Positions 18,052-26,582 of a stretch of DNA of 64,000 nt are shown here, piece after piece. How positions within the stretch are numbered: the stretch's first letter is position 1; each line of letters starts with the position of its first letter. This stretch comes from an alpha proteobacterium BAL199 (GTDB lineage Bacteria; Pseudomonadota; Alphaproteobacteria; Thalassobaculales; Thalassobaculaceae). The stretch covers positions 1 through 64,000 of the forward strand of contig ABHC01000005.1 of assembly GCA_000171835.1 (NCBI GenBank), written 5' to 3'. Below the pieces are notes generated by a model. The model was not told the origin of the DNA, searched no databases, and saw only the letters and a list, made by a program, of their open reading frames with translations. A program made the position numbers and the translations under genes.

Positions 18052-19296
18052 TCACGCCAACCGATTCTTGTGGAAGGCGCCACCCTTCATGATCGCGGCC
18101 AGATGGGCGCCTTGCCCCTCCAGCAACGTTATGTCCTTCAGCGGGTCGTCGTCGACCACGATCAGATCGGCCCAGCCCCCCGGCTCGACCACGCCCAGCG
18201 TGCCGGGGCGCCGGATGACCTCGGCGGCGATTGTAGTGGCCGAGCGGATAACCTCCATCGGGGATACCACTTCGGTGCGGATCGAGAACTCGCGGCTCTG
18301 GTCTTCCAGCAGGGCGCCCAGCAGATCCGATCCGTAGCCGACCTTGACCCCGGCGCGCTTGCAGATTTCCAGGGAGCGATAACCGCCCTCCAGAACCATG
18401 TCGTTCTTCTCGAGCATCTCGGCCGGCATGCCGTACTGCGCCGCCCGCTCCTTCATCGCCACATAGGCGACCAGGTTGGCGACCAGATAAGCGCCTTCGC
18501 GAGCCATCAACTCGGCACGGGCATCGTCGATCAAATTACCATGCTCGATCGTGCGCACGCCGTTGGAGACCGCCCGGTCGATCGCCTCGGCCGAATAGGC
18601 GTGAGCACAGACGTAACGGCCGAATGCCTCGGCCTCTTCAACCGCGGTCTGGATCTCGCCGACCGAGAACTGCAGCGAGTCGAGCGGATCGAACGGCGAT
18701 GCAACACCGCCGGAAACCATGATCTTCACGTGGTCGCAGCCTTGGCGCATCTGTTCGCGCACCACCCGGCGCAGAGCGTCCTCGCCGTCGACGATCTCGC
18801 GCAGATTGGCGAAGGCGTTGCAGCAATAGCAAGGATAGCCGGTGTTCTGCCGTCCCCGCCCGTCGGAGTGCCCACCGGTCGGGCCGATCGAACGGCCGGC
18901 AATGAACAGCCGAGGGCCGACGATCAATCCCTGGTCGACCGCCGCCTTCACACCCCAGTCGGTGCCACCGGTGTCGCGCACCGTGGTGAATCCGCGATCC
19001 AGCATCGAACGGAGCCGGACGGCGGCTCGCGCGGTCGCCAGCGTCAGCGGCACATCCTCCATGCGCCGCATGTACACTTCGCTGTGCATGCAGTGGACGT
19101 GGCAGTCGATCAGGCCCGGCATCAAGACCCGGCCGCCGCAGTCGATCACCGTGGCCGACGCCGACGACAGTGGGCCGTCGGCCACCTCGCAGATGCGACC
19201 GCCTTCGACCAGCACTTCATAGCCGCCCCGTGCCTCGTCGAAGCGCGGGTCCAACAGGCGCAGGTTACGGAACAGGAAAGCACCGGTCTGGACCAT
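18052..19296 (-). CDS. Amidohydrolase, Xaa-Pro-dipeptidase/imidazolonepropionase-like (paralogue 2)
   Basis: 414 residues of the amidohydrolase superfamily subgroup that cleaves N-acyl or dipeptide substrates with a C-terminal Pro, Lys or Arg. Metal ligands are visible: PGLIDCHVHCMHS (HxH), DHVKIMVSGG (bridging Lys), CAHAYSAEAI, RTIEHGNLIDD and GYGSDLLG (Asp). There is no signal peptide. It is closely similar along its whole length to the next gene upstream. It sits directly before a polyamine-type importer, so the importer probably brings in its substrate or a related one. Confidence 0.87.
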   Translation of the reverse strand: MVQTGAFLFRNLRLLDPRFDEARGGYEVLVEGGRICEVADGPLSSASATVIDCGGRVLMPGLIDCHVHCMHSEVYMRRMEDVPLTLATARAAVRLRSMLDRGFTTVRDTGGTDWGVKAAVDQGLIVGPRLFIAGRSIGPTGGHSDGRGRQNTGYPCYCCNAFANLREIVDGEDALRRVVREQMRQGCDHVKIMVSGGVASPFDPLDSLQFSVGEIQTAVEEAEAFGRYVCAHAYSAEAIDRAVSNGVRTIEHGNLIDDARAELMAREGAYLVANLVAYVAMKERAAQYGMPAEMLEKNDMVLEGGYRSLEICKRAGVKVGYGSDLLGALLEDQSREFSIRTEVVSPMEVIRSATTIAAEVIRRPGTLGVVEPGGWADLIVVDDDPLKDITLLEGQGAHLAAIMKGGAFHKNRLA

Positions 19297-19365
19297 TAGG
19301 CATCGTCCTTGGTCTAGCGTCGTGGTCGGCCGGTGACCCCAGAAACGGGGCCGGCGAAGCAGGCG

Positions 19366-20601
19366 TCAGTGCAGCGTGTTCTTATGGAAGCTGCCGCCCT
19401 TGACGATGGCAGCAAGGTTGGTTTCCGGCTTGTTGAAGATGCTGAGATCCTTGAGGGGGTTGCCCTCGATCACCAGCAGGTCGGCATAGGCACCCGGCCG
19501 CAGGCATCCAAGCTGGCCTTCGCGACGCAGCACCTGGGCTCCGATCAACGTGGCCGACCGGATGATTTCCATTGGCGACAGAACCTGGGAGCGGATCTCG
19601 AACTCGCGGGTCTGCTCGACCTGGAGTTGGCCCAGCAGGTCAGTGCCGTAAGCCACCGGCACACCGGCGCGCTTGCAGATCTCCAGCGACCGCAGGCCGC
19701 CGTCGATCACCATTTCGTTCTTCTCCAGCATCTCCGGTATCATGCCGAGATCGGCCGCGCGCTCGCGCATGGCGTAGTACGCTACCAGATTGGCAATCAG
19801 GAACATGTCGTTCTCGGCCATCAGCTTGGCGGAAGCATCATCGATCAGATTGCCATGCTCGATGGTGCGCACCCCGGCCTTGGCGGCACGGGTGATGGTT
19901 TCCGGCGTGTAGGCATGGGCGCAGACATAGCGGCCGAAAGCGTGCGCCTCCTCCACTGCGGCGGCGACTTCGCCGAGAGAGAACTGCAGGCTGTCGATCG
20001 GATCGTAGGGCGACGCAACGCCACCGGACATCATGATCTTCACGTGGTCGCAACCCTGACGCATCTCCTCGCGCACTGCTTTGCGCACCTCGTCTGGGCC
20101 GTCGGCGATTCCCATGGAAAACACCAGTGCGTTGCAGCAATTGCAACTGGGACCGGTATCGGTGCGCCGCCGGCCGTCGCTGTGGCCGCCGGTCGGGCCG
20201 ATTGCCTTGCCGGCGATGAACAGGCGGGGACCCGGGACCAGTCCCTGATCGACCGCCGCCTTCAGACCCCAATCCGCACCGCCGGTGTCGCGCACCGTGG
20301 TGAAACCGCGATCCAGCATGGCGCGCATCAGCTTCATCGCGTGCGCGGTCATCAGGGTCAGCGGCATGTTCTCGAGCGTGCGCAGGAACACCTCGCTCAG
20401 CACCACGTGGACGTGGCTGTCGATCAGGCCAGGCATCAGAGTACGACCGCCACAGTCCACGACCGTGGCGCCGTCGGATTTGATCGGCCGGTCCGACACT
20501 TCGCGAATCCGCTCGCCTTCAACCAGCAGTTCGAAGCCGCCCGCGACCTCATCGCGTTCGGGATCGAGCATCTGGAAGTTCCGGAAAAGAGTTTGGACCA
20601 C
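19366..20601 (-). CDS. Amidohydrolase, Xaa-Pro-dipeptidase/imidazolonepropionase-like (paralogue 1)
   Basis: 411 residues, tandem paralogue of the gene downstream. Equivalent active-site segments are PGLIDSHVHVVLSE, DHVKIMMSGG, CAHAYTPETI, RTIEHGNLIDD and AYGTDLLG. Both share an unusual cysteine cluster (here SCNCCNAL, there YPCYCCNAF) after GPTGGHSDGR. Well over half of residues agree by eye, so this is an old duplication retained with some divergence, perhaps for different side chains. It is the first gene of the operon and is divergent from ggt at 20770. Confidence 0.87.
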   Translation of the reverse strand: MVQTLFRNFQMLDPERDEVAGGFELLVEGERIREVSDRPIKSDGATVVDCGGRTLMPGLIDSHVHVVLSEVFLRTLENMPLTLMTAHAMKLMRAMLDRGFTTVRDTGGADWGLKAAVDQGLVPGPRLFIAGKAIGPTGGHSDGRRRTDTGPSCNCCNALVFSMGIADGPDEVRKAVREEMRQGCDHVKIMMSGGVASPYDPIDSLQFSLGEVAAAVEEAHAFGRYVCAHAYTPETITRAAKAGVRTIEHGNLIDDASAKLMAENDMFLIANLVAYYAMRERAADLGMIPEMLEKNEMVIDGGLRSLEICKRAGVPVAYGTDLLGQLQVEQTREFEIRSQVLSPMEIIRSATLIGAQVLRREGQLGCLRPGAYADLLVIEGNPLKDLSIFNKPETNLAAIVKGGSFHKNTLH

Positions 20602-22502: not shown

Positions 22503-23231
22503 ATGACCATCCCGACCCTGCGGCTCGGCATGATCACGCCGTCGTCCAACACTGTGCTGGAGCCGATGACGGCCGCCATGCTGGCCGACACGCCTGACAT
22601 AACGGCCCATGCGGCACGGATCCGGGTCACCCAGATCTCGATGGGCAGCGGATCGGTCGGGCAGTTCGACACAGCACCGATGCTGGAAGCGGCTCGGTTG
22701 CTGGCCGAAACCAAGGCCGGTTCAATCTGCTGGAACGGAACCTCGGCCGGCTGGCTCGGCCCGGAGCAGGACCGGGTCATGGTGGAAGCCATCGAAAACG
22801 AGACCGGCCTGGCCGCCACCACCGCGGTGCAGGCCACCCTCCAGGCGCTCGAACTTCTCGACACCGACGGCTTCGGGCTGGTCACGCCATACATCGAGGA
22901 CGTCCAGGCCCGGGTCCGCAAGAATTTCGCCGACGCCGGCCACCCCTGCCGCAGCGACCGCCGTCTCGACATCACCGAGAATTTCGCATTCGCCGAAGTG
23001 ACCGAGGCGACCATCGAACGGATGATCCGAGAGGTGGCCGCCGACGGAGCGACCGCCGTGGTCGTGCTCTGCACGAACCTGCGCGGGGCCCGGCTTGCTC
23101 CAGCTCTTGAGACCGAGCTCGGAATCACGCTGCTGGACAGTGTCTCGGTCGCGCTTTGGGGAGCGATCCGCGCCGCCGGCCGCGATCCGTCCGTCATCCG
23201 TGGGTGGGGCCGTTTGTTCGACTTGCCATGA
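22503..23231 (+). CDS. Asp/Glu racemase superfamily protein (maleate isomerase/arylmalonate decarboxylase type)
   Basis: 242 residues. Two cysteines in characteristic positions serve as candidate catalytic residues: ICWNGTSAGW, and VVLCTNLRGA in the second half. GMITPSSNTVLEPMT at the N-terminus is typical of the maleate isomerase/AMD branch. A clear AAGGAG precedes the ATG. It is likely co-transcribed with ggt and may isomerise or decarboxylate a product of it. The exact reaction cannot be read from sequence. Confidence 0.82.
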   Translation: MTIPTLRLGMITPSSNTVLEPMTAAMLADTPDITAHAARIRVTQISMGSGSVGQFDTAPMLEAARLLAETKAGSICWNGTSAGWLGPEQDRVMVEAIENETGLAATTAVQATLQALELLDTDGFGLVTPYIEDVQARVRKNFADAGHPCRSDRRLDITENFAFAEVTEATIERMIREVAADGATAVVVLCTNLRGARLAPALETELGITLLDSVSVALWGAIRAAGRDPSVIRGWGRLFDLP

Positions 23232-23363: not shown

Positions 23364-24572
23364 ATGTCTCAGATGACCGAGAACGAGACCGACAAGCGGA
23401 CTCTGCCCAAGCTGCCGGACCACGTCAGCCTGCACTTCATGGGCAGTCAGGGGCTCTTGCTGGACGCGCATAGGCAGTTGCTGTTTTCGGCGACACCGGC
23501 AGCCACCCTGGTCTGGTGCTGTCTTGCCGAGTTCGACTCCCGCGCCGAGGTTCTGTCCGAACTGCGACAGAGAACCGGGCTTTCGGCCAGACGGGCGGCG
23601 AACTGTATCGACGAAGCGGTGCAGAGCTGGCGTACCGCCGGCTTGTTCGACACCCCAGGCTCCGCCCTGCCCAGTGCCCTGCCCGAGCCGGTGGAGTTTG
23701 ACCGCGACGCGCCGGCCCCAGCAGTGCCAACGATCGTACCGTCGAGTGAGGCTGCCTACCGATTGCTGGATACCACCTTCGCCATCGCGTTCAGCGATCC
23801 GACACTTCGTGAGGCCGTCGACCCTGTGATCCGCCACCTGCAGACCGCGCCCGTCGCCCGACCGGATGCCGTTCTGGTGGTTGCCCGCGACGACGGAGGG
23901 TTTGTGGTGTCGCAGGTCGACGTCGGCCAGGTTCGATGCGGCCATATCGACGAGGTCGCTCCTCTCGTGCACACAATCCTGGCTCACGCCGCCGTCCACC
24001 GGGCGGACGCCTTGTGCGCCATCCACGCCGGCGCGGTCAGTGTCGGCGAAGGCTGCGTCCTATTGGCGGGAGAGGCCGGGGCCGGGAAGAGCACCTTGGT
24101 GTCCGGGCTTGCCGCTGCCGGCTGGCGCGCCCTGTGCGACGACACCGTTCTGCTGAGCAACGACACCCTGGAAGTCCGACCGTTGTGCGGCGCCTTGGGC
24201 GTCAAGGCCGGATCCTGGCCGATCCTGTCGGACGCCTTCCCCGAGTTGCTCCAAAGCCCGGTGAACCTTCGATCCGACGGCCGAGCGGTTCGCTATCTGT
24301 CCCGAAATCCACACCCGTTGGATCGAGACCGCTATCCGGTCCACCGGATCGTGTTCCCCCGCTACGACGCCGGTGCCGGCCGCGGGTCTCTCGAGGAACT
24401 CGCCCCGGCGACGGCACTGACGCGCCTGATGAAGTGCGCCTACTTTCTGGAACACCCGTTGAGTCCAGAACTGATGGAACGGCTCATCCAGTGGATCGCC
24501 GGGATCGATTGCTTCGAGATGCGATACGCATCGCTCGCCGATAGTGTCCGCCTGTTTCGAAAGCTGGACTGA
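23364..24572 (+). CDS. PqqD-like domain fused to HPr-kinase-like domain
   Basis: 402 residues in two parts. Residues about 10-95 form a PqqD/RRE-like winged fold (LPDHVSLHFMGSQGLLLD, LVWCCLAEFDS). Such domains bind leader peptides of ribosomally made peptides. Residues about 215-390 form an HPr-kinase-like P-loop domain: AIHAGAVSVGEGCVLLAGEA leading into GEAGAGKSTL (Lys near 242), then GWRALCDDTVLLSND. No PTS genes are nearby, so the target is not HPr in the classic sense. The stop overlaps the next start by one base. With the nucleotidyltransferase and the Tat-exported His-rich protein it forms a candidate peptide-modification module. Confidence 0.82.
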   Translation: MSQMTENETDKRTLPKLPDHVSLHFMGSQGLLLDAHRQLLFSATPAATLVWCCLAEFDSRAEVLSELRQRTGLSARRAANCIDEAVQSWRTAGLFDTPGSALPSALPEPVEFDRDAPAPAVPTIVPSSEAAYRLLDTTFAIAFSDPTLREAVDPVIRHLQTAPVARPDAVLVVARDDGGFVVSQVDVGQVRCGHIDEVAPLVHTILAHAAVHRADALCAIHAGAVSVGEGCVLLAGEAGAGKSTLVSGLAAAGWRALCDDTVLLSNDTLEVRPLCGALGVKAGSWPILSDAFPELLQSPVNLRSDGRAVRYLSRNPHPLDRDRYPVHRIVFPRYDAGAGRGSLEELAPATALTRLMKCAYFLEHPLSPELMERLIQWIAGIDCFEMRYASLADSVRLFRKLD

Positions 24573-25690
24573 TGCTCGGGTTGGTGACTAGGCGTGGAGC
24601 GGCGCTGCGGGCCCTGCTCGACGGATTGCATCTCGATCCGGGCCGCCGTGGCGCGATCCTCGCAACGCTGGACTCCGACGCATGGATACCGGTGATCGGA
24701 TTGGCCAACGAACATCGGCTGGCGCCCGCCCTGGGATCAGCACTGCAGGACGCAGGGGTCCTCAATACCATCCCCGACGACGCGCGCCATTATCTTGAAC
24801 TCCTTCATCACAGCAACGGCGCCCGCAACGGGATCATCCGAAATCAGGCCGTCGAGATCATCGCGACGTTGAACCGCCGTGGCATTCGGCCACTCGTTCT
24901 GAAGGGAGCGCTGTCGCTGTTCGCCGACCGGGAGCGCGACCCGGCCGCTCGGATGATGTCCGATATCGACATCGTGGTGCCGATGTCCGCGCGGACAACC
25001 GCGGAGGAGACCCTCTATTCCCTCGGTTATCACATCGCGGACCGTTATCCCGAAGGACATCACGCCGTCGGCGAATTCAAGCGCGAGGGCGATCCGGCAG
25101 CGGTCGACCTGCATCTGGAACTGATCGACCAGCGGTACATCCTTCCGGCCGTCTCTGTGTTCTCGGACGCCCGACCGACGATCGTGGAGAACGCCACGAT
25201 CCTGTTGCCAAGTGCCACGCACCGGGTCCTGCACACGCTGCTGCACGCCCAGATCCATCATCTCGGAAACTTCTATCGAGACCATGTGTCACTTGGCCAA
25301 TTGTATGATTTCGCGACGATCGTCGCTCTGCATCGATCCGATGTTGACTGGCTGTCCATCGACCTGTGCATGCAGGAACATCGTTTGACCCCTGCGCTCG
25401 ACAGCTATCTCGCCCTGGCCGACGAGCTTTTCGGATTGCCGTGGCCGCTGTGCCGAGCTCCAGGGACGGCCGGGCAACGCCACGCCCAGCGATGCCTCCT
25501 GCAACTGCATCTGCCCGCGCTCGAGGGTGTGTTCATTCTGGTTGGAAATCTCCGCGCGGCCTTCGCCTGGCATCGTATGCGCGCCACCTACGGGGACCGC
25601 GGTGGACCCCTCACCTGGCATGGTCGCCACACGTGGCAGTACCTCAAGCGCCACGATGTCCGTCAGACGATCGCGCGGCTGTTTCGATGA
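24572..25690 (+). CDS. Nucleotidyltransferase family protein (NTP_transf_5-like)
   Basis: 372 residues. The nucleotidyltransferase core reads RPLVLKGALSLF, then MMSDIDIVVPMSARTTAEE with the DxD metal pair and AAVDLHLELID with the third acidic position. The rest is helical. The family is typically found beside HPr-kinase-like and PqqD-like genes in exopolysaccharide or peptide-modification clusters; its substrate is unknown. It starts on the last base of the upstream stop (TGATG), so translational coupling is likely. Confidence 0.8.
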   Translation: MLGLVTRRGAALRALLDGLHLDPGRRGAILATLDSDAWIPVIGLANEHRLAPALGSALQDAGVLNTIPDDARHYLELLHHSNGARNGIIRNQAVEIIATLNRRGIRPLVLKGALSLFADRERDPAARMMSDIDIVVPMSARTTAEETLYSLGYHIADRYPEGHHAVGEFKREGDPAAVDLHLELIDQRYILPAVSVFSDARPTIVENATILLPSATHRVLHTLLHAQIHHLGNFYRDHVSLGQLYDFATIVALHRSDVDWLSIDLCMQEHRLTPALDSYLALADELFGLPWPLCRAPGTAGQRHAQRCLLQLHLPALEGVFILVGNLRAAFAWHRMRATYGDRGGPLTWHGRHTWQYLKRHDVRQTIARLFR

Positions 25691-25839
25691 TGCATTGAGC
25701 CGGAAGAGAGCGGACCGCCGTTGGCGTTCCGCATCGCCAACGACATGACAACCGCGTCCGTGAGGTGCCCCAGAACCGGGAAGCCGTCTCGGACGCGGCT
25801 GCCGCTGTGTCGATATCCGGCGACTACCGGATGTCTTGG

Positions 25840-26145
25840 TTAGCGTGTGATGTCCTGATGGTTCGAGCGGCCGGGTACTCCGTCGCGGCCGCCATTTCCG
25901 TATCCGTTGTTGCCCTTCTTCTTCCAGTGGTGATGGCCATGCCCGTGTCCATGCCCGTGTCCACCGCCATTGCCCGGCGGCGGGAACGGGCTGCCGCCGG
26001 ATGCGGCGGTTGCGTAGTTCTGCCGCGAGGCAGCCACCAGCAGCGTCACCGCGGCCGGTGTCACCACCGCGTACTTACCGCATGAAGCAAGAAAGTTCCG
26101 TCGGGCGACACGCATTCGCTCTTCGGTCTGCTTATCAGTGTTCAT
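25840..26145 (-). CDS. Small Tat-exported His/Gly-rich protein
   Basis: 101 residues. The N-terminus holds a twin-arginine signal, ARRNFLASCGKYAVV, followed by a hydrophobic stretch ending near VAAS. The mature part of about 60 residues is low complexity: SPFPPPGNGGGHGHGHGHG, HHHWKKKGNNGYGNGG, DGVPGRSNHQDITR. The His run could bind metal. AAAGGAGACGTCCG before the ATG is a good ribosome binding site, which with the Tat signal argues that this is a real gene. It converges on the nucleotidyltransferase gene. It is a possible substrate of the PqqD/kinase/nucleotidyltransferase genes; this is inference. Confidence 0.75.
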   Translation of the reverse strand: MNTDKQTEERMRVARRNFLASCGKYAVVTPAAVTLLVAASRQNYATAASGGSPFPPPGNGGGHGHGHGHGHHHWKKKGNNGYGNGGRDGVPGRSNHQDITR

Positions 26146-26582
26146 CGGACGTCTCCTTTCCGATAACTGCATCGACGTGTGAGCTTTGCCGATTTCCGGC
26201 AGGGGATGCCGCGCCACCGCACGGTGGATCGCCGCGATTCACACGCGTCCACCAACATATCCGCCAACGCCACCGCGGCGTTGTGATCAGCCCGTGGCCT
26301 GCTGTGGCAACTATTTCTTCCAAATTAGATTAATAAAAGTACATAACTAATTAATATATATTAGTTTAATGAAACCTTGGTTCCGCGAAAAAGGCGATCC
26401 GGTCAACGTCGTGCACATCGATGTCGCTTTGCGGTTGATGAAATGCTGCATCAGGAACAGCGCTCGTTCGGGCAGCGGGTATGGTGGTTTGGACCTGGAA
26501 ACCAGAGACGGCGCGGACACGGTGATGCAATCTGCCAGAGCCCGCACATGACCTACCGAACTCGCCTCTTCCCGTCTTTCGT
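26146..26582. other. Promoter-type gap with an AT-rich patch
   Basis: 437 bp without a recognised gene, between divergent genes. About 26312-26380 is strikingly AT-rich and contains an inverted repeat AACTAAT (26345-26351) / ATTAGTT (26360-26366). The rest is GC-rich and unremarkable. It probably carries the promoter of the Tat protein gene and perhaps that of the MFS gene. Confidence 0.5.

Follow-up and report, generated by a model that had tools for sequence, protein, structure and literature searches.

The window, which here means the whole 64,000-nt stretch of contig ABHC01000005.1 from alpha proteobacterium BAL199 (genome code G000), contains a three-gene locus in which a kinase fused to a predicted leader-binding domain lies beside a nucleotidyltransferase-type gene and a gene for a small protein with a twin-arginine translocation (Tat) signal. 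The first-pass annotation had placed these genes at 23364-26145, and all three were found there. The fusion kinase gene (23364-24572, plus strand) encodes 402 aa, with a domain at about residues 15-94 resembling PqqD and the recognition elements (RREs) of ribosomally synthesized and post-translationally modified peptides (RiPPs), and an HprK-like P-loop kinase domain at about residues 211-401. The former, a predicted leader-binding domain (23406-23645, plus strand), has 3 strands and 3 helices in the model, while the kinase domain (23994-24566, plus strand) carries the P-loop GEAGAGKST and a DD motif. The next gene (24572-25690, plus strand; 372 aa) belongs to NTP_transf_5 (PF14907) and contains the KG and DxD residues K111, G112, D131 and D133. 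Since the TGA of the kinase gene (24570-24572) overlaps the ATG of the NTP_transf_5 gene (24572-24574) by one nucleotide, as TGATG, the translational coupling claimed earlier for this pair is plausible.

The third gene is convergent (25840-26145, minus strand) and encodes the small Tat-signal protein of 101 aa, in which the leader RRNFLASCGKYAVVTPAAVTLLVAASRQNYATAA is followed by Ser49 (codon 25999-26001, minus strand), the candidate phosphorylation site, and the C-terminal tail is GNNGYGNGGRDGVPGRSNHQDITR (25843-25914, minus strand). A Shine-Dalgarno sequence, AAGGAG (26153-26158, minus strand), has its last base 7 bases upstream of the ATG and, together with the leader profile score, makes the small gene look real. 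Within the window's genome, leader profile A3 gave 75.7 bits at this place and 16.5 bits at the runner-up place, the former score not being independent because the window leader is one row of the profile; 1000 shuffled window leaders reached a maximum of 10.7 bits with a local copy of A3. No Rfam family was found in the window at gathering thresholds.

The small protein carries what reads as a twin-arginine signal with an AxA cleavage region, as expected of a Tat substrate. A set of 62 distinct leader proteins was compared; as they were chosen by the leader profile, RR is present in all 62, and there is F two positions further along in 61, the residues of T-P-P in 56, 59 and 58, T or S in 57, and L in 60. 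A truncated copy of the window protein, the frameshifted Ensifer copy and leaders below 14 bits (including those of L005, L058, L188, L200, L203 and L204) were left out of this set. Ser at the mature N-terminus, which is Ser49 in the window protein, is found in 57 leader proteins, and the five exceptions consist of four proteins from genome G114 and one in which the Ser is shifted by a residue. The tails vary: 30 are of the NNGxGN type, and others are His-, Thr- or Cys-rich, basic or amphipathic. The window protein ends in DITR, and 23 of the 62 end in DxxR or DxxxR. Judging from these sequences, conservation covers the Tat-type leader and the Ser that directly follows, and an NNGxGN-type tail is shared by about half of the proteins.

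The window protein has 8 His among the 53 residues from Ser49 onward, and HGHGH stretches occur in some relatives, as might be expected if the protein were exported to bind metal through a His/Gly-rich part and its gene neighbours were there for some other reason. This explanation is very improbable, as just 5 of the 62 leader proteins, the window's included, have at least 15% His after the leader, and the rest include basic, Thr-rich, Cys-rich and amphipathic tails; a metal-handling link through the His stretch was set aside on the same count. From the earlier description of a Tat-exported, His/Gly-rich protein of 101 residues, the Tat-type leader can be kept, with export as a prediction, whereas the His/Gly part proved to be a variable insert. 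Genomes G538 and G520 each have one kinase match and five small proteins with differing tails, and one kinase with several variable-tailed leader proteins is the pattern of leader-guided modification, where one enzyme gives variable products. In G114 (L093, L138), three leader proteins are encoded in tandem; their tails are rich in Cys (CEPCSTCTPCDAICKDY-like), the aligned Ser is absent, and they are possibly another product class. The kinase-adjacent small protein in five genomes of the G393 family (L182-L186) ends in a Trp/Leu-rich, amphipathic-looking stretch (e.g., LPNWLERLLDWLF), and other copies in the family are NNGxGN-tailed.

The linkage between the small gene and the kinase is conserved among relatives, most of which were fetched without requiring the small gene. 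With the window kinase as tblastn query, 21 plasmid records were returned, and 10 of the 12 opened have a Tat-leader protein of the window's kind near the kinase (the small gene of L010 being frameshifted and the L005 copy having been a seed of the profile used), while L006 and L007 are without one. A scan of genome contigs with four close kinases gave 18 loci, and in the five nearest (Vineibacter terrae, a Rhodospirillales metagenome-assembled genome and three Rhizobium) the small gene adjoins the kinase; at the remaining 13 the leader profile gave no hit nearby, and one of these (L119/L058) has a weaker leader-like protein upstream. Overall, an A3-type leader protein lies within 3.5 kb of 31 of the 39 distinct fusion kinases scoring at least 200 bits, or 29 of 37 if L018 and L019, whose loci were reached by way of the small protein, are left out. 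Among kinases of 95-140 bits the count is 0 of 33 (Fisher 2.8e-13), with flanks shorter than 1.5 kb on one side in 5 of the 39 fusion rows and 19 of the 33 distant rows. The leader profile matched none of 44 control windows of three kb lying more than 4 kb from any kinase, and for fusion kinases the small gene is thus present, not absent, beside most homologous pairs (31/39 versus 0/44). A loose Tat-leader regular expression, applied within 1.5 kb, matched at 27 of 41 fusion loci, 17 of 27 HPr-rel-A loci and 2 of the 44 control windows, although some of its matches (e.g., that of L070) differ from the leader protein counted later.

Eight of the 39 kinases are misses in this count. The leader protein at L005 is more divergent, and at L188 a leader-like protein is encoded about 1 kb upstream. 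L027/L055 ends at the contig end inside an apparent leader protein, while for L199, L054 and L028 the small gene is present elsewhere in the genome, in three, three and four copies, respectively; the remaining two misses are L006 and L007. Among the eight kinases scoring 140-200 bits, a leader-like protein is encoded immediately upstream of L200, L203, L204 and L119/L058, three of them coming from genomes outside the class, and that of L200 has RKR instead of RR; L058, L200, L203 and L204 were entered in the adjacency list by hand, and none is among the 39. No leader-like protein was found for L201, L202 and L057 in this score range, while L030 ends at a contig end, and a leader protein lies next to the other kinase fragment of its genome (G402), L060. 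At L010 (Ensifer adhaerens Casida A plasmid), the kinase gene and the small gene are each split over two frames and are apparently decaying.

At least six gene orders of the trio were found among relatives. The order kinase-NTP_transf_5-small in one direction is present in Sinorhizobium and Ensifer, small-NTP_transf_5-kinase in Rhizobium sullae and R. gallicum, small-kinase with convergent NTP_transf_5 in R. tropici and R. rhizogenes, and small-kinase-NTP_transf_5 in Leisingera, Novosphingobium and Parasedimentitalea. The arrangement of the window, kinase-NTP_transf_5 with a convergent small gene, is shared by Vineibacter, G220, G414 and G122, while the small gene diverges from kinase-NTP_transf_5 in G538, G455, G522, G482, G520 and G501, and further variants occur in G794, G512 and G561. 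The linkage survives many rearrangements, which argues for a functional tie.

Co-occurrence at the level of whole genomes, which the first-pass annotation had suggested as a check, also supports its proposal. A profile of 14 kinases matched 27 of 385 genomes of the class at E<=1e-20; in this class draw, 10 genomes have a fusion kinase (E<=1e-40), 10 have the small protein (E<=1e-6) and 8 have both (Fisher 1.8e-13), the A3 seeds having come from the window and four other genomes among the shared eight. Without these five seed genomes there remain 3 with both, 2 with the small protein only (G148, G156) and 2 with the kinase only (G345, G266). Cleaner in this respect is a second draw, of 149 genomes from the family of G393, though G393 is in both draws and A3 seed L020 may belong to the same family: 9 genomes have the small protein, all within the 10 that have the kinase (E<=1e-60; Fisher 1.3e-13). 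In the tenth kinase genome, a leader-like protein of more divergent sequence is encoded about 1 kb from the kinase, and four genomes with weaker kinase matches (1e-38 to 1e-20) have no small protein. The kinases of G393 and G883 are about 50-70 kb away from the nearest small genes, so that co-occurrence holds without adjacency. Stand-alone copies of the small gene with no kinase nearby were seen at L015, L016, L017 and L020 on Sinorhizobium and Bradyrhizobium plasmids, and those of L015 and L017 adjoin a ligD-type ligase gene. As a query against viral contigs and plasmids, the window small protein found no relatives, while a Sinorhizobium relative and leader profiles did find them.

Regarding the kinase itself, the proposed PqqD-HprK fusion holds through the family profile and the predicted model, while the window protein alone falls under the Pfam cut-off for PqqD (PF05402; 17.3 bits versus 23.4). 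In six related fusion kinases, PF05402 scored above the cut-off in 4 (25.5-32.6 bits) and had no match at E<=0.01 in 2. Against known structures, the profile of 14 fusion kinases (window included) matched TfuB1 (6jx3, 4.6e-9) and TbiB1 (5v1u, 1.1e-7), as well as HPr kinase (3tqf, 1e-7) among other P-loop proteins. The AlphaFold model of the kinase (mean predicted local distance difference test score, pLDDT, 78.6) has the same domains as the sequence profile. Its N domain matches the chains of 5v1u, in which TbiB1 is complexed with its leader, with a Foldseek TMt of 0.75-0.80, so that family profile and predicted model both point to a winged-helix fold like that of TbiB1 and TfuB1. The best matches of the C domain are PEP (phosphoenolpyruvate) carboxykinase, and weaker ones are HPr kinase. 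Residues H221, K242, D259 and D260 are invariant in all 14 aligned fusion kinases, the window's included. A strict regular expression for the kinase motif was discarded, as it missed 8 of 47 rows of at least 140 bits and 11 of 33 others, with spacing the suspected cause, and alignments were relied on instead.

As for family placement, the C-part of the window kinase scored 90 bits against TIGR04352 (HprK_rel_A, NCBIfam; cut-off 200), and the window kinase 19.8 bits against TIGR00679 (HPr kinase/phosphorylase; cut-off 240). Five fusion relatives scored 59-99 bits against TIGR04352, and three members of a 27-row clade of HPr-rel-A type scored 291-395. In the kinase tree, which has long branches and 16 open forks, several of them deep, these 27 rows, which make up most of the more distant kinases, form their own clade (support 100/99), only three of them having been scored against TIGR04352, and the window kinase lies outside it. 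Judged by cut-off and tree, the window kinase is not an HPr-rel-A kinase and, by score, it is not an HPr kinase.

A domain that may bind a Tat signal peptide could also belong to a proofreading chaperone, comparable to the redox-enzyme maturation proteins, in which ATP would control export and no lasting covalent mark would be left. Maturation proteins binding Tat signal peptides are known, as described in PMC8428690, and give such a role a precedent; the signal peptide is also the conserved part of the small proteins, while their tails vary. The kinase nevertheless retains H221, K242, D259 and D260, and a chaperone of this kind leaves no role for the conserved Ser or for the NTP_transf_5 gene, which is found near 36 of the 39 fusion kinases, making this a distinctly unlikely explanation.

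The NTP_transf_5 assignment of the partner is well above the gathering threshold (PF14907, E 1.4e-37, 130.1 bits against 31.2), and K111, G112, D131 and D133 are invariant in all 9 rows of alignment A6. Its AlphaFold model (mean pLDDT 80.5) resembles ANT(2'')-Ia and LnuA and, more weakly, FKRP, some of the matched FKRP structures being with CDP-ribitol. This last resemblance would suit a role in which kinase and nucleotidyltransferase modify another molecule, e.g., an exopolysaccharide or a lipid carrier, with the small exported protein as partner or sensor. Several loci do lie amid polysaccharide genes, by annotation on Leisingera and Parasedimentitalea plasmids, and one protein cluster, whose L009 member is a sugar transferase (PF02397), is common to 5 of 28 loci. 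However, beyond the core genes no neighbour cluster occurs in more than 5 of the 28 loci (open reading frames of at least 130 aa), which gives no sign of a wider shared operon; the tested window neighbours are a decarboxylase/racemase-type enzyme and a major facilitator superfamily (MFS) transporter, and the N domain is predicted to fold like leader-peptide binders. Modification of another molecule is accordingly held to be unlikely, if worth keeping in mind. The loci with polysaccharide-type genes nearby are L005, L009, L018, L054 and L181-L183, as read from annotation in L005 and L018 and from PF02397 in L009 and its cluster mates. In the window, the gene directly upstream of the kinase (22503-23231, plus strand) is of the arylmalonate-decarboxylase/Asp-Glu racemase family (PF17645, 6.2e-20), and two similar adjoining long open reading frames at 18052-20601 (minus strand) look amidohydrolase-like from their translations alone.

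The genetic link, the conservation of leader and Ser, the predicted folds, the retained catalytic-type residues and the absence of the lasso B2 protease from 16 of 17 genomes were all computed here, and the reading that we prefer is that the small protein is the substrate of a leader-guided kinase module for Tat-exported small proteins, with a probability of roughly 0.6. The Tat signal would double as a RiPP-like leader. By domain homology, the PqqD/RRE domain may bind the conserved Tat-type leader in the cytoplasm, and the fused HprK-like domain would then phosphorylate the bound precursor, most likely at the conserved Ser49. By analogy with PsmN, a lasso-peptide enzyme discussed below, the NTP_transf_5 partner might add a sugar or nucleotide to the phosphate and, as the signal sequence suggests, the tagged protein would be exported by Tat and its leader removed. 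We are less sure of the exact phosphorylation site and of the chemistry of the partner. Concerning the earlier proposal that the small protein is phosphorylated or nucleotidylated, the genetic linkage is borne out by adjacency and co-occurrence, while modification of the small protein itself is a step that we infer from sequence.

Several observations weigh against a substrate role. The 39 fusion loci include close relatives and are not independent, and the Fisher tests ignore shared ancestry. The leader profile found no leader protein in about 16.5 kb at L006 and L007, the former also lacking NTP_transf_5. In G148 and G156 the small protein occurs although a fusion kinase is lacking (best A1 hits 1.7e-7 and 5.6e-10, respectively). 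Among Sinorhizobium plasmid records, 71 have the small gene and 6 a detectable kinase, a count that covers plasmids only and was made with a distant kinase query. The aligned Ser is missing from all four small proteins of G114, and constraints set by signal peptidase or by Tat could account for a Ser after AxA. The conserved Ser also lies away from the C-terminus, where lasso peptides have their site.

A second family of Tat-leader proteins was found with the HPr-rel-A-type kinases. In this clade, 22 of 27 loci (L061-L063, L065, L067-L070, L205-L209, L212-L216 and L218-L221) encode a different Tat-leader protein (RRRLLKGLAAGVPAIVTLQSGAALA-type) upstream of the kinase and in the same orientation, 13 of the hits being profile seeds found by the regular expression and that of L205 being weak (7.7e-4), and the profile of this type matched 0 of the 44 control windows. 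If the homologous pairs are widened to these distant kinases, the A3 leader family is missing (0/33), but the main clade has its own kind of Tat leader. The frame between Tat-leader protein and kinase is TIGR04353 at the four loci scanned (40.0-53.5 bits, cut-off 35), although Pfam PqqD gave no match for these four genes. Ten small proteins of both kinds matched no Pfam or NCBIfam family at E<=0.01. This arrangement suggests that HPr-rel-A may also act on an exported protein; no assigned substrate for HPr-rel-A and related kinases was found in the open-access literature.

More tentatively, and at somewhat less than even odds, these systems may represent a widespread class of exported phosphopeptides in Alphaproteobacteria and other Pseudomonadota. 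Here, fusion and HPr-rel-A kinases would both use a Tat signal as a RiPP leader, a Ser/Thr near the mature N-terminus would be phosphorylated, NTP_transf_5 would build a phospho-linked sugar or nucleotide, one kinase would serve several precursors whose tails differ widely, and the product would act beyond the cytoplasm, possibly on the cell surface. The relatives known by name belong to the Alphaproteobacteria, and we infer the occurrence in other Pseudomonadota. With a conserved neighbour that has an export leader, HPr-rel-A and related kinases acquire a candidate substrate that can be tested, and leader recognition of the RiPP type becomes connected with Tat export. The pairing of kinase and nucleotidyltransferase known from some lasso clusters also appears to exist where lasso enzymes are absent. 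Among titles and abstract openings, no literature report was found of a PqqD-kinase fusion of this type or of Tat-exported substrates of HprK-related kinases.

Compared with known systems, the window kinase shares a P-loop kinase domain with HPr kinase/phosphorylase but differs in its TIGR00679 score. The HPr-rel-A system, which consists of kinase TIGR04352 and the PqqD family chaperone TIGR04353, often beside NTP_transf_5, is alike in kinase superfamily and in the kinds of partner genes, whereas in the window the PqqD-like domain is fused to the kinase, the small protein has another leader family and the kinase is below the cut-off. PqqD and the lasso B1 RREs (TbiB1, TfuB1) resemble the window N domain in predicted fold and sequence profile; the latter is fused to a kinase, whereas B1 serves a protease and a cyclase.

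The lasso-peptide kinases PadeK, ThcoK, SyanK and PsmK are described, in PMC9266682, as HPr-kinase-like with a His-Lys-Asp-Asp motif, and PsmK has a nucleotidyltransferase-type partner, PsmN, reported there to act on the phosphate in pseudomycoidin. A lasso cluster was set aside for the window, and the earlier statement that no lasso-peptide enzymes are nearby agrees with the B2 protease (PF13471) having no match in the whole genome of the window; the protease is likewise absent from 16 of 17 kinase genomes (present in G708). The window module nonetheless resembles lasso tailoring in its HPr-kinase-like enzyme, its ribosomal precursor and, in one lasso case, the nucleotidyltransferase-type partner, and the His-Lys-Asp-Asp motif fits H221, K242, D259 and D260 by order and spacing rather than by an alignment with PadeK. 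It differs in that the precursor has a Tat signal and not a lasso leader, that no Ser stands at the C-terminus and that the PqqD-like domain is fused to the kinase. The window kinase may act much as lasso-type tailoring kinases do, while carrying a recognition domain of its own.

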